64,000 bases of DNA from SAR86 cluster bacterium SAR86E (GCA_000307935.1 AMWX01000001.1:62001-126000), one strand, 5' to 3'; counted from the first letter of the stretch, positions 19,081-23,970 are shown. Translations and numbers: made by a program. Notes: generated by a model not told the origin, from the letters alone.

Positions 19081-19620
19081 ATGTTTACAAGAATGGATCA
19101 AAGCACTGAGCAAGAATGGCAGCATATCAGTGAGCAACACATGCCACATATTTTTGATATGCCCAATAGAATTATTAATATGCTTAAAGAAGCTGAGCAA
19201 CTAACTCTTGGTTTTGGAACAAATCAGCTTCACCACGCATTGCAGACTGCTACTATGGCTAGACGAGCAGGGGCTGATGATGAGATGATTTTAATCAGTC
19301 TCATTCATGATATCGGTAAAGTAATAAATGTACCCAATCATGGCCAGATTGCTGCTGAAATGATTAAACCGTATGTCAGTGAAGATGCCTATCATATCAT
19401 TCGCACTCATCAAGACTTTCAAGGTGAACATTATTATCATTACATGGGAAAGCCTCAAGATTTACGTAAGCAATATGAAAATGAATCTTGGTATAAAAAA
19501 GCCACTGAATTTACAGATGAGTGGGATCAAGCTGCCTTTGATCCAGATTATAAAATAGATTCCCTTGAATCATTTGAGCCTCTTATAAAGCAATTTTTTG
19601 GGGCTCCGCACACAATATAG
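19081..19620 (+). CDS. HD-domain mixed-valent diiron oxygenase family (PhnZ/MIOX-like; often labelled HD phosphohydrolase)
   Basis: 179-residue HD-domain protein carrying the full six-ligand set of HD-type diiron oxygenases: H52, H76-D77 (LIHDIGK), H87 (NHGQ), H110 (RTHQ) and D149 (EWDQ). Such enzymes (PhnZ, TmpB, myo-inositol oxygenase) cleave C-C or C-P bonds with O2. The HALQ, ARRAGADDEM and AFDPDY blocks place it near PhnZ and the COG4341 group of predicted HD phosphohydrolases. The PhnZ substrate-site Tyr and Glu, as I recall them just before the first His ligand, are replaced here by Thr and Phe, so phosphonate cleavage is not supported. No phosphonate genes are nearby. It stands alone, convergent to the Rieske gene 7 nt away. 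No Shine-Dalgarno is evident; an ATG at 19093 is an alternative start. Confidence 0.78.
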   Translation: MFTRMDQSTEQEWQHISEQHMPHIFDMPNRIINMLKEAEQLTLGFGTNQLHHALQTATMARRAGADDEMILISLIHDIGKVINVPNHGQIAAEMIKPYVSEDAYHIIRTHQDFQGEHYYHYMGKPQDLRKQYENESWYKKATEFTDEWDQAAFDPDYKIDSLESFEPLIKQFFGAPHTI

Positions 19621-19627
19621 TTGATAT

Positions 19628-20788
19628 TTAAAGTTTGCTATTCAAGGCTAATATTTGATCCTCAGGCGGCGCGTCTTCAAATTGTGCTATTGGGATTGCC
19701 TTCCTGATCTTTTCTGCACTATCTATCAAACAAACTTCACTAGTAGCTAAAGGCCCAGACTTGAATTTATTCGTATTCATACCTTCTTGCACCCATTTAA
19801 TTAGCTGAGTATCTTCATTATTCACCTGTCTATTGATTCTCCAATTTAAGTATTGCGCTGCTTTTGTTTCCCTTCTTTCGTCAGGCAAGGCATAAGGAAT
19901 TTCTCTGATCATAGTCGTATGAGCATTGATAGGTATAAACTGCATAAAATCCATTTGCTCTGGATATATGTCAAAGGCTAAGTTAGGCCATAACCTGTAA
20001 TACAACCAGTATCGCTGCTTATCTTTTGGTAAGTGACTCATATGAGGTAGAAATTTATCATAGAGCTTATTGGATAAATTGTTTTTTCTTAAATTTAAGC
20101 CATCACCCCACATTTTATGAATGTAACCACCGTTTGGTGAAACCTCTAAGCCATAACTCTTACCAACTAATGCTGATAAACCAGGATGAGCAACAGGAAT
20201 GTGAAGGGCATCAACATAGTTATCAGCTATTTGCTTCCAATTAACCTTTCTTGGGCGCATTGTGACTCTTCCTAGAGGTTTCATTTCTTCAAGTCTATAC
20301 ATGCTAATTTCATCCATGAATGGTTCAAATTGCTGGTGTACGCTCGGAATGGTTGAGGGCAGGAGCTTTATAAAGATAAATCCTTGAAATATTTCTATTT
20401 CTACTGTCTTTAAAGAATGATTATTTTTATTAAATTCTTTAAATTGATCTTCGTAAGGTACTTTTATTAATTTACCGTTAAAGTCATAACTCCATGCATG
20501 ATATGGGCAAGTAATCTTCTCTTTACAAGAGCCTGTATCCTCATCTAAAAGTTTAGTTCCCCTATGCGCACAAAAATTGTGAAATGCTTTTACACCATCG
20601 TCTTTACCTCTTATTACAAAGACTCTCTCATTGAATATCTCAAATGTAAAAAAATCACCAGCATTTGGAATATCAGATAGATGGCAAACAAGTTGCCAAT
20701 TTTTTAGAATCAACTCTCTTTTTTCTAACTCAAAAAAAGCATCACTTGTATAAGTCCATCCAGGCAAACTTTTTATAGTATTGGTCAT
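19628..20788 (-). CDS. Rieske non-heme iron oxygenase, alpha subunit
   Basis: Oxygenase component of a Rieske monooxygenase/dioxygenase, 386 residues. The [2Fe-2S] ligands are C73-x-H75 and C94-x2-H97 (CAHRG and CPYHAW). The mononuclear iron site is D193-x2-H196-x4-H201 (DALHIPVAH), with D193 as the bridging Asp between the two centres. The overall build resembles alpha-only enzymes that demethylate or hydroxylate quaternary amines and small acids (glycine betaine, carnitine and stachydrine types). No reductase or ferredoxin partner is nearby. Its ATG directly abuts the stop of the DDAH-like gene, so it is the third gene of the permease/DDAH/Rieske operon. Confidence 0.9.
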   Translation of the reverse strand: MTNTIKSLPGWTYTSDAFFELEKRELILKNWQLVCHLSDIPNAGDFFTFEIFNERVFVIRGKDDGVKAFHNFCAHRGTKLLDEDTGSCKEKITCPYHAWSYDFNGKLIKVPYEDQFKEFNKNNHSLKTVEIEIFQGFIFIKLLPSTIPSVHQQFEPFMDEISMYRLEEMKPLGRVTMRPRKVNWKQIADNYVDALHIPVAHPGLSALVGKSYGLEVSPNGGYIHKMWGDGLNLRKNNLSNKLYDKFLPHMSHLPKDKQRYWLYYRLWPNLAFDIYPEQMDFMQFIPINAHTTMIREIPYALPDERRETKAAQYLNWRINRQVNNEDTQLIKWVQEGMNTNKFKSGPLATSEVCLIDSAEKIRKAIPIAQFEDAPPEDQILALNSKL

Positions 20789-21658
20789 TTAAAGCACTCT
20801 TTTAATGGGTCTAGTTAAGCAGGTTGGTCCACCTTCACCTTTACGACTAATCTCATCTCCCTTATATGTTCTGATCTTGCAGCCTGCCTCCTCTAATAGG
20901 CTTTGAACCTTAGGTAGTTTTTCAAGCATAATTATTTCTCTTGGGGCAGTAGCTAATACGTTACATCCCATTAAATGATACTCTTTCTCGTTTACCGTTA
21001 TTAATTCAATGCTACGTTTATGCAACCAATCAATAAATGTTTGAGGCATCAATGGTTCATATATCAATGCTAGATCTTTATCTAGGGGTGAGATAATGGA
21101 CATTAAATGAAGCACATCATCTGGATGATTTGGTTCAGGCAGAGGAACGACATGAAGGTCAACATCATTACCTAGTATTTTTTTTAGTTGCTTAATACCA
21201 TCTTGGTTGGTTCTTGGGCCCAAGCCTACCGCCGCATGGTTTTTGTCAATCCAAATAAAATCTCCACCCTCTAAGGTACCTGGAGCTTTAATATCACCTG
21301 CAATACCACATCCAAGGTCTTTAAGTGATGAGTAATTAATCTTTGCTTCGGGTGTTCTTGATGATCGACCCATATTGCAAAGGATCAACCCACCTGGAGA
21401 GATAAGAATACTATCTCTTGTATAGATGCTATCAATTGTAAGATTGTGATGAGCATCTAAGTTTATGACATCAGTTCCACTATCAATGAGCAGTCGCTTG
21501 AAGAACTCAAACTCTTTCTTGGCTTCATCAAGTTGTGGTTTTGAATGAAACCTAAGCTCTTTCCATTCATCATTAAGCTTCTCATCACTTATGAAACTTG
21601 CAACAGGATCTCTCACAGCAACACTAGATAAAGAAGAATATTCGTTAAATTCACTCAT
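20789..21658 (-). CDS. DDAH/amidinotransferase-family guanidino hydrolase
   Basis: Guanidino-group-modifying enzyme (pentein fold), 289 residues from the ATG at 21658. Probable catalytic residues are E130-x2-D133 (LEGGD), H184 (DDVLHL) and nucleophile C280 (GGPTCLTRP). The superfamily includes dimethylarginine dimethylaminohydrolase (methylarginine to citrulline plus methylamines), arginine deiminase and amidinotransferases; single-domain length fits the DDAH group best. An upstream in-frame start at 21742 is rejected because it lies inside the permease gene and adds non-homologous residues. It starts 2 nt after the permease stop and abuts the Rieske ATG, which points to a shared pathway for a guanidino or N-methylated substrate. 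Confidence 0.83.
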   Translation of the reverse strand: MSEFNEYSSLSSVAVRDPVASFISDEKLNDEWKELRFHSKPQLDEAKKEFEFFKRLLIDSGTDVINLDAHHNLTIDSIYTRDSILISPGGLILCNMGRSSRTPEAKINYSSLKDLGCGIAGDIKAPGTLEGGDFIWIDKNHAAVGLGPRTNQDGIKQLKKILGNDVDLHVVPLPEPNHPDDVLHLMSIISPLDKDLALIYEPLMPQTFIDWLHKRSIELITVNEKEYHLMGCNVLATAPREIIMLEKLPKVQSLLEEAGCKIRTYKGDEISRKGEGGPTCLTRPIKRVL

Positions 21659-21660
21659 TT

Positions 21661-22947
21661 TTATTTTAAAAATTTGTATATTGGCATGCCTATTATAATA
21701 AGAATTAAACAATAAAATACCATCTCTATACCAGCACCCCATATTGCAAATAATGCATATATCAAAGTTGCAAAAGCTAAGCCCATAGCTTTTATTCTAT
21801 GGGTATTATCATCCTCTACTTGCAAAAATTTTAATTCAGCAATAGCACAAAAAGCATATGCTAGTAATGTTGACAGTGTAGAAAGCATAGCCATAAATAT
21901 AAACGCATTTATTAGGCCTTTTGTATAGTTCAGAACAAGAAGCAGACTCACAAAAGAGCCGGTTAATAGATATGAAAAAATCGGGGTTCCAGTTTTTGAA
22001 AGTATGGAGAAGCGCTCTGGTAACAATCCATCTCTTGCAGCCGCTAACGAAAGATTGCCAGCTGTTAAGGTGTTTGCATTAAGCGAACCTAAAGTTGATA
22101 TTAAAGCTCCAAAGGTAATCAATGTACCTCCAGCAACGCCAAGCACTTTTGTGGCTGCTAGTGCAAAAGGAGCTGTGGAGTTTATTAACTCATCAGCCGG
22201 AACTATTGATGCAATACTAAGACTCACTAAAAAATATAAAACAAGGATAGTAATTACTGATGCTATCAATACCTTAGGAATTGTTTTAGTTGGATTGATC
22301 ACATTATCTGCTGGCATGGTAGCTGTTTCAATACCTATAAAAGACCACATGACTAATGTTGTCACTGTTGCCATTAAAGATATTGGATTTAGTGGAGTTG
22401 GATTAATTTCAGGAAGATTCGATGAATTAAAATTTGTAAATCCAATCATAATAATAAAAAACAATGGTAGAAGTTTTAAAATAGTGGATACCAGCTGAAA
22501 CTTTGAACTTCCTTCCAAACTGCGAATATTTAACATTACAATCATCCACACTAACACCAATGAAAATATGAGGGATAAGGAAGGCGATTGAATGATCTGT
22601 GGAATAAAAAAACCAAGATAACCAACAAAGGCAATTGAAATGCCGGCAATTGCTGATACACATGCAATCCAATAAGTCCATGCAATAATGAATCCTGAAA
22701 ATCTTCCTAATCCCTCATTCACATAAATGTATGGCCCACCGGTTCTTGGTATTCGCTTAACTAAACTAGACATGGTTAAAGCAACAAGAATGGATCCCAT
22801 TCCTGCTATAAGCCAACCACTTAACCCAAGGAGTCCATATGGTGCAAGCATTGTTGGCATCATAAAAATACCTGACCCAACAGCACAGCCCACTGCTATT
22901 GACCAACCGCGCCAAAAACCTATTACTCTGCCTTGATCATGATCCAT
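21661..22947 (-). CDS. APC-superfamily amino acid/polyamine permease
   Basis: Inner-membrane transporter of the amino acid-polyamine-organocation family, 428 residues, about twelve helices. The helix-1 substrate motif GCAVGSGIFMMP (~19-30) and RTGGPYIYV (~69-77) resemble the basic amino acid/polyamine antiporter branch (AdiC, PotE). Gene order permease / DDAH-like / Rieske suggests it imports the substrate of the next enzyme, perhaps arginine, methylarginine or another guanidino compound; this is inference. It is the first gene of the leftward operon. Confidence 0.9.
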   Translation of the reverse strand: MDHDQGRVIGFWRGWSIAVGCAVGSGIFMMPTMLAPYGLLGLSGWLIAGMGSILVALTMSSLVKRIPRTGGPYIYVNEGLGRFSGFIIAWTYWIACVSAIAGISIAFVGYLGFFIPQIIQSPSLSLIFSLVLVWMIVMLNIRSLEGSSKFQLVSTILKLLPLFFIIMIGFTNFNSSNLPEINPTPLNPISLMATVTTLVMWSFIGIETATMPADNVINPTKTIPKVLIASVITILVLYFLVSLSIASIVPADELINSTAPFALAATKVLGVAGGTLITFGALISTLGSLNANTLTAGNLSLAAARDGLLPERFSILSKTGTPIFSYLLTGSFVSLLLVLNYTKGLINAFIFMAMLSTLSTLLAYAFCAIAELKFLQVEDDNTHRIKAMGLAFATLIYALFAIWGAGIEMVFYCLILIIIGMPIYKFLK

Positions 22948-23029: not shown

Positions 23030-23632
23030 TTATGGTTTTAACTTGTTGGCTTGATAGATTACAGCTTGATATAAAAATGGAGATAATATTATCCAGGGCA
23101 GTTGAGTCTGCAGCATAACGGTCCTACCATTTAGCTCAAAGATCGTAGGATTAAAATATTGACCAGTTGGTGCAAGAGGAGCCCATGAAAGTAATTTTCC
23201 TTCTGATAGTTGATCATGATAAAGAAAAAGCTCAACAAATAAATTTTGTGTTACACACCAAAGCAATAAAATAGAAAAAGCATACCAATTCCATGAAAGA
23301 AAAATTTGTGAGTTTTTATTGCTAAATTTCCACATTAGCCAAAGGCCTCCAAGAGATACAGTCCCAGCATCAGCCAGCGAGTTAAGAAACCAATTTAAAT
23401 GCAGTGGGATCCAATTGTTTAATGCCATTGACCTTCTAAGATTCACAGCATCTCCATCAACCCAACCATATGTAAACCACAGCTCCCAGCCAAGTGCGCA
23501 AACCAAAAAAGACCCTAAATAAATTTTTGGGATCCAGGATGGAAGGTCTTTTTTGTAAGAAAGGTAAAAAATTAAAGGGGCGAGGGCGCTAACATATACT
23601 ACTGTTATAACCCTCGCTTCCTCTAAAGTCAC
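23030..23632 (-). CDS. Unknown polytopic membrane protein
   Basis: I do not recognise this 200-residue protein. It has about five hydrophobic segments (near 8-25, 35-55, 90-102, 113-133 and 178-192), many Trp residues and a conserved-looking WELWFTYGWVDGDAVNLRR loop, shown in part (FTYGWVDGD). There is no signal peptide apart from the first helix. The start is a GTG at 23632, 4 nt after the stop of the upstream small gene at 23637, with no clear Shine-Dalgarno; translational coupling is likely. Nothing in the context gives a function. Confidence 0.7.
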   Translation of the reverse strand: MTLEEARVITVVYVSALAPLIFYLSYKKDLPSWIPKIYLGSFLVCALGWELWFTYGWVDGDAVNLRRSMALNNWIPLHLNWFLNSLADAGTVSLGGLWLMWKFSNKNSQIFLSWNWYAFSILLLWCVTQNLFVELFLYHDQLSEGKLLSWAPLAPTGQYFNPTIFELNGRTVMLQTQLPWIILSPFLYQAVIYQANKLKP

Positions 23633-23636
23633 TGTT

Positions 23637-23852
23637 TTATAATGGGCGTCTTAAATATATCTGACTTGCTCCATCTTGGGTTACTAGCTCCCAGCCTTCT
23701 TGACCAAGCTTGTTAAGTTCAATCATAGACATTTCATATTTCCAATGAACGGCATCTTTATGAGCCAACTTAAATTCTTCTGTTTCTTCATTGGAATAAC
23801 CCATTGAGGTAGAATTGCTGTGATCCACAATTTTGTATTCATATTTAGTCAT
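23637..23852 (-). CDS. Small DUF4177-like protein
   Basis: 71-residue soluble protein with the DUF4177 pattern: YEYKIVD at the N-terminus, then LNKLGQEGWELV and a final strand IYLRR. The function of this family is unknown. Two in-frame ATGs lie at 23861 and 23852. The Shine-Dalgarno AGGAG at 23862-23866 touches the first but is 9 nt from the second, so I choose 23852. It is followed after 4 nt by the unknown membrane protein gene, with which it forms a two-gene unit. Confidence 0.7.
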   Translation of the reverse strand: MTKYEYKIVDHSNSTSMGYSNEETEEFKLAHKDAVHWKYEMSMIELNKLGQEGWELVTQDGASQIYLRRPL

Positions 23853-23970
23853 TTTTTTCATCTCCTGCCGGATGGCAATAAGATGCGTTCCTTCAGTATT
23901 ATTACTTACTTCCGTCCCAAGAAAAGGATGAACGATCCAATCATTCTAAACTTTTTCACTAGATAAAAAA

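Follow-up and report, generated by a model that had tools for sequence, protein, structure and literature searches.

DDAH and arginine deiminase (ADI) are the described guanidino hydrolases closest to the enzyme discussed here. Two residues after the catalytic His, ADI has an Asp and DDAH has a Lys, which lets a dimethylamino group fit (PMC11659421). ADIs also possess an extra helical domain (PMC3474736). Among Rieske oxygenases, CntA binds a quaternary ammonium group via a cation-pi contact with Tyr203 (PMC7948474), and a Cys pair is found in some group V Rieske enzymes (PMC10952381). The solved transporter structures of most relevance are those of AdiC, an arginine/agmatine antiporter. Proteins related to these are encoded side by side in the SAR86 cluster bacterium SAR86E.

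The window analyzed (the whole stretch of DNA, 64,000 nucleotides, GCA_000307935.1 AMWX01000001.1:62001-126000) comes from a genome of 1.4 Mb that is 88% complete. It contains the following features, numbered from the first letter of the window.

19081-19620, plus strand: HD-domain protein gene, product weakly similar to PhnZ/TmpB phosphonate oxygenases; converges on the Rieske gene
19628..20788, minus strand: Rieske oxygenase, 386 aa, gene 3 of the unit, optional in relatives; assigned by Pfam, ligands, tree and fold
20789..21658, minus strand: hydrolase of DDAH-like guanidino type, 289 aa, N-terminus MSEFNEYSS, gene 2; assigned by Pfam, DDAH fold match and invariant residues
21661..22947, minus strand: APC-family, AdiC-like permease, 428 aa, gene 1; assigned by AA_permease_2, TIGR00905 and AdiC as best solved relatives
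23030..23632, minus strand: gene for a 200-aa membrane protein, no family assigned; 82 nt upstream of the permease and codirectional with it
23637..23852, minus strand: small ORF of 71 aa between riboswitch and 200-aa gene, weakly DUF4177-like (23.0 bits, cut-off 25)
23882..23936, minus strand: glutamine riboswitch aptamer heading the small ORF and the 200-aa gene (RF01739, 60.7 bits, cut-off 35)

The three-gene unit is confirmed as real, and its recurrence in 15 other SAR86 genomes with the order kept rules out chance. The initial annotation had described three genes separated by gaps of 2 nt (permease to hydrolase) and 0 nt (hydrolase to Rieske), and both the coordinates and the gaps are as it gave them. 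On the minus strand, the hydrolase ATG is at 21658 and its stop ends at 20789. Pfam and NCBIfam concur on the family of each of the three proteins, and none of the three reaches an NCBIfam equivalog cut-off. The catalytic residues and metal ligands of the enzymes are all intact, as had been read for the Glu/His/Cys of the hydrolase (E130/H184/C280) and for the cluster (C73/H75/C94/H97) and iron (H196/H201/D326) ligands of the Rieske protein. Base composition carries no sign of horizontal transfer (G+C 36.3% vs 35.1%).

The glutamine riboswitch is also found upstream in SAR86 relatives. The 200-aa gene, whose product has no Pfam or NCBIfam match, is present in 12 of the 15 SAR86 loci with a readable position; riboswitch and gene co-occur in these 12, and both are missing from three loci that carry the triad. 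Their joint presence or absence ties the riboswitch to the 200-aa gene. The stretch from this gene to the permease shows no terminator-like site, and a search for a guanidine riboswitch before the permease found none. A role for the glutamine riboswitch as leader of the whole unit is possible but unproven, as is nitrogen control of the triad.

Within the genus, the hydrolase is found in 15 of 25 other genomes, always with the adjacent permease and Rieske genes in the same order, and the triad proteins are 64-80% identical across these 15. Four SAR86 relatives (G022, G003, G005, G010) keep the neighborhood that starts at the HD-domain gene on a single contig but have no part of the triad. Since all 15 hydrolase carriers are complete and these four intact sites are empty, SAR86 genomes gain or lose the three genes together. 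The structure and co-inheritance of the unit are firm. As a separate observation, SAR86 loci differ in what stands beside the HD gene, where the triad, an 874-aa TonB receptor or a cysE/cysK-like pair may be present or absent (L018, L020, L022, L030, L019, L023, L024, L031, L237-L240). The HD-domain protein is 83-92% conserved and is retained where the triad is missing.

Genomes sampled from the order's other families lack the hydrolase. When 85,000 species genomes were scanned with an alignment-based search, members of its family with 44-68% identity turned up in SAR92/Porticoccaceae, in Kordiimonas, in further MAGs of alpha- and gammaproteobacteria and in a single planctomycete; phage copies amount to a single match, 24% identical. 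The permease adjoins the hydrolase in 52 of 54 loci (the SAR86E window counted). The Rieske gene is third in 29 of the 54 and, outside SAR86, in 13 of 38. A genome-wide search of 34 non-SAR86 genomes bearing the hydrolase detected a Rieske orthologue in 11, almost all of them with the gene inside the operon and one with a fragment elsewhere; the other 23 gave none, several of the assemblies searched being partial. On a quick hydrolase tree with many open forks, Rieske presence changes 5-6 times, at least four of which are forced by well-supported branches. These locus counts, genome-wide absences and tree changes mean that the core consists of the permease and the hydrolase, and that the Rieske enzyme is an add-on, repeatedly gained or lost. 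Conservation of the neighborhood had been suggested as a check on the unit, and the three genes do co-occur in every hydrolase-bearing SAR86 relative, with no failure of co-occurrence.

Neighborhoods in relatives point to arginine-derived amino acids, partly from peptides. In Kordiimonas sediminis, the genes directly upstream are those of an M24 prolidase and of a Cc2672-type L-arginine carboxypeptidase, which scores 421 bits against 3MTW, above every other PDB amidohydrolase. In sphingomonads, clusters around a sister Rieske gene (L198, L199, L203, L204, L205, L206) encode a TonB receptor, an AdiC-like permease, an amine-oxidase/CrtO-like flavoprotein and M20 peptidases. A Cc2672-type carboxypeptidase is present in four of nine sphingomonad genome loci (L198, L199, L203, L204), where the adjacent enzyme is the genome's copy most similar to that of L199; three of the nine (L200-L202) show none of these neighbors. 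A close copy of the hydrolase was not found in the sphingomonad genomes, so the cluster does not depend on it. Rhizobial homologues of the hydrolase are 35-43% identical to it, keep the HLMS and GGPTCLTRP motifs, and adjoin either an AruI-like decarboxylase (named in L232 from sequence resemblance judged by eye) or an aminotransferase with an amino acid ABC transporter. A plasmid of Phaeobacter sp. G2, a roseobacter from an Emiliania huxleyi culture, carries an aminotransferase, a 5-guanidino-2-oxopentanoate decarboxylase and, annotated beside the latter, a DDAH-like gene (L235), which differs from the hydrolase of the unit.

The hydrolase matches both Pfam ADI (1.7e-24) and DDAH_eukar (1.3e-16). 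Its catalytic triad is invariant in close relatives, and the full invariant set in the family alignment is D76, D82, R101, E130, R149, H184, M186 and C280. D60, D66, R85, E114, R132, H162 and C249 of Pseudomonas aeruginosa DDAH align with D76, D82, R101, E130, R149, H184 and C280. Of the DDAH positions that bind carboxylate, amine and guanidine (assigned in part from PMC11659421), the hydrolase keeps R101 and R149 for the alpha-carboxylate, D76 for the amine and D82 for the guanidine. The first three of these (R85, R132 and D60 in the P. aeruginosa enzyme) are invariant across the core family.

A structure search with the AlphaFold model of the hydrolase (mean pLDDT 73, C-terminal loop poor) gives P. 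aeruginosa DDAH 3rhy as the top match (E 2.6e-13). The two enzymes (1H70/3RHY for DDAH) have in common the propeller fold, the Cys-His-Glu triad, the Arg pair and Asp for an alpha-amino acid, and a single guanidinium Asp. Both are without the ADI helical domain of about 85 residues, for which 289 aa leave no room; the alignment with DDAH is continuous. However, they are only ~20% identical, the hydrolase has Met, not Lys, two residues after the catalytic His, and its guanidinium Asp is preceded by Arg where DDAH has Glu. It also scores far under the cut-offs of the curated DDAH models (83.3 vs 340 bits for NF045660 and 57.8 vs 450 for NF045658).

With ADI, the hydrolase shares the superfamily, the triad, the Pfam match and the TRD motif, to which Arg81 corresponds, but neither the second guanidinium Asp nor the Arg close to the catalytic Cys is present, and the helical domain is missing. 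In place of that Asp, Met186 (HLM) is found in 53 of 53 core-family sequences with the column; outgroup relatives retain the Asp in 32 of 38. Glu275, five residues before the catalytic Cys, occurs in 52 of 53 family sequences, at a position taken by Asp in DDAH and by Arg in ADI. The hydrolase is a new subfamily with specificity probably shifted away from the unsubstituted guanidinium. It is probably a guanidino hydrolase that acts on an arginine-like amino acid. Because the invariant Met replaces the guanidinium-binding Asp of ADI, a substituted (methylated) arginine is a likelier substrate than arginine, and methylated arginine is favored with about even confidence. Elsewhere, some gammaproteobacteria (L062-L076, L134, L147) have several distant ADI/DDAH-like paralogues per genome, some of which adjoin M20-type hydrolases or polyamine genes.

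The permease matches AA_permease_2 (1.2e-46). It had been annotated as an APC permease of basic amino acid type, which is consistent with this match, with its resemblance to TIGR00905 (basic amino acid/polyamine antiporter) and with AdiC as its best solved relative, aligned over nearly the whole length. It differs from the AdiC-type antiporter family in scoring 243.6 bits against TIGR00905, under the cut-off of 409, and from AdiC itself in having Asn and Cys at two positions of the AdiC substrate site. The Asn stands where AdiC has the Trp that stacks on guanidinium, which weakens the prediction of the permease substrate.

The Rieske protein matches Pfam Rieske (1.1e-21) and Ring_hydroxyl_A (1.1e-32), and its ligands are kept in all orthologues except incomplete sequences. 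A structure search with its model (pLDDT 84) ranks CntA first and stachydrine demethylase (Stc2) second, with ring hydroxylases later. There is also distant similarity to SxtT and SxtDIOX, SxtT scoring ~100 bits below CntA. The best NCBIfam match is the GbcA model NF058607, at 132.7 bits against a cut-off of 670 (786 bits for the positive control, L211). In a tree built without Stc2, the marine proteins cluster with the sphingomonad group (99/97), next to a sister group of Shinella/rhodobacterial proteins, and CntA and verified GbcA fall outside this clade (branch to the references 100/98). Phylogenetic placement had been proposed as a further check, and it sets the protein in its own clade outside CntA and GbcA, its nearest folds being quaternary-ammonium oxygenases and not unrelated ring hydroxylases. 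Tree and model cut-offs reject a betaine demethylase identity (GbcA, CntA), so that by these criteria the protein is not a glycine betaine or carnitine oxygenase.

The marine and sphingomonad Rieske sequences have the motif NYxDxLHI in common. Tyr191 lies at the position of CntA Tyr203 (aromatic, clade Va) and is invariant in the two sister clades (39 of 39), as is the bridging residue Asp193 (39 of 39), which is Glu in all 25 CntA, GbcA and other reference rows. The protein thus resembles CntA, other group V Rieske enzymes and Stc2 in fold, in Rieske and iron ligands and in the cation-binding Tyr of CntA, but differs from the group V enzymes in the bridging Asp, in the absence of the Cys (CxxC) pair from the alignment, in its separate, well-supported clade and in having no linked reductase. 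A search of the 88%-complete genome turned up no dedicated Rieske reductase, the only Fer2 protein found there looking like NqrF by its nqrD/nqrE-like neighbors. The 340- and 241-aa genes near the Rieske gene in some SAR86 loci were considered as redox partners and rejected, as they encode a cysteine-synthase-type PLP enzyme and a serine acetyltransferase. In the sister clade of rhizobia and rhodobacters (L165, L166, L167, L209), the Rieske gene shares its clusters with genes for aminotransferases, flavoproteins, aminomethyltransferases and ABC transporters (those of L167 being of polyamine type), and these clusters are probably another N-demethylation pathway.

From the observed anatomy, residue conservation, folds, co-inheritance and context, substrates, products, step order and transport direction can be proposed. 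The unit may be a catabolic or nitrogen-scavenging module for protein-derived arginine-type amino acids, a reading with roughly equal chances of being right or wrong. The permease would import a cationic amino acid over the inner membrane. Cys280, aided by His184 and Glu130, would then attack the guanidino carbon as in the DDAH mechanism to yield citrulline and an amine, with mono- or asymmetric dimethylarginine as the best-fitting substrates. Citrulline would be usable, since the genome encodes argininosuccinate synthase (argG), through which it could re-enter arginine synthesis. The Rieske add-on would oxidize a cationic N-methylated basic amino acid from the same uptake route, most likely by N-demethylation, which is plausible for this enzyme but tentative. 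Its candidate substrates would be symmetric dimethylarginine and trimethyllysine, which a DDAH does not use.

The initial annotation had envisaged hydrolysis of a methylated arginine or related guanidino osmolyte followed by N-demethylation of the product. The methylated-arginine chemistry is borne out in part, as the DDAH/ADI specificity positions indicate a substituted arginine. The second half is not supported: with the Rieske enzyme absent from 23 of 34 non-SAR86 hydrolase genomes, it is not an obligatory downstream step. Because the sphingomonad sister clade has arginine-peptide uptake genes and no close copy of the hydrolase, the Rieske enzyme more likely acts on the imported cationic amino acid than on the released methylamine, whose oxidation is unlikely.

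In its most complete form, the proposal is an undescribed marine pathway salvaging methylated basic protein residues, in which a new DDAH-like subfamily would take methylarginines and a new Rieske clade would demethylate methylated Arg or Lys, fed by TonB-dependent peptide uptake and arginine carboxypeptidases. Taken as a whole this is rather unlikely. Against the methylarginine module itself, the hydrolase has Met186 where true DDAHs have Lys, Arg81 is ADI-like, and the curated DDAH score is 83 vs 340 bits; on the Rieske side, the bridging residue is Asp193 and not the Glu seen in CntA and GbcA, and the Fer2 protein found looks like NqrF in place of a dedicated reductase. The hydrolase could instead be a divergent arginine deiminase. 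Plain arginine would then be imported, possibly with citrulline or ornithine leaving in return, and ammonia would be released as a nitrogen source, with the Rieske enzyme serving elsewhere. In favor of this are the top Pfam score of the ADI model for the hydrolase, the fit of Arg81 to the TRD motif, the likeness of the permease to arginine antiporters, the glutamine riboswitch upstream in SAR86 and the naming of Cc2672-type enzymes for arginine release. However, Met replaces the second ADI guanidinium Asp family-wide, Glu275 stands where ADI has Arg, the helical domain is missing and the best fold match is a DDAH, so that this explanation is rather improbable.

The two enzymes may also work in parallel behind a shared basic amino acid permease, the hydrolase on methylarginines and the Rieske enzyme on epsilon-N-trimethyllysine. 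Each is found without the other, yet with cationic-amino-acid permeases and peptidases, and Tyr191 suits a quaternary ammonium, which trimethyllysine has and methylarginines lack. The unit contains no lysine-specific gene, and the fact that the Rieske gene is strictly third at 29 loci speaks for a single pathway, which makes parallel salvage improbable. Alternatively, the Rieske enzyme could hydroxylate a carbon of an arginine-like compound, such as a guanidino osmolyte or natural product, with no demethylation. The distant similarity to SxtT and SxtDIOX would agree with this, as would the presence of an amine-oxidase/CrtO-like flavoenzyme beside the sister gene in sphingomonad clusters, but the nearest folds are quaternary-ammonium oxygenases, with SxtT well below CntA, and hydroxylation is very unlikely.

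Searches for SAR86 with Rieske, for methylarginine with Rieske and for marine methylarginine use returned no relevant paper in the searchable open literature, which excludes most subscription journals, and the combination of permease, hydrolase and Rieske oxygenase appears undescribed. SAR86 and SAR92 bacteria abound in surface seawater, and most of what is known of them comes from genomes. A block-inherited module for arginine derivatives would mark methylated protein residues as an unrecognized marine source of nitrogen and carbon, and would give Rieske oxygenases a new substrate class. Two of the three proteins are soluble enzymes, which makes the idea directly testable.
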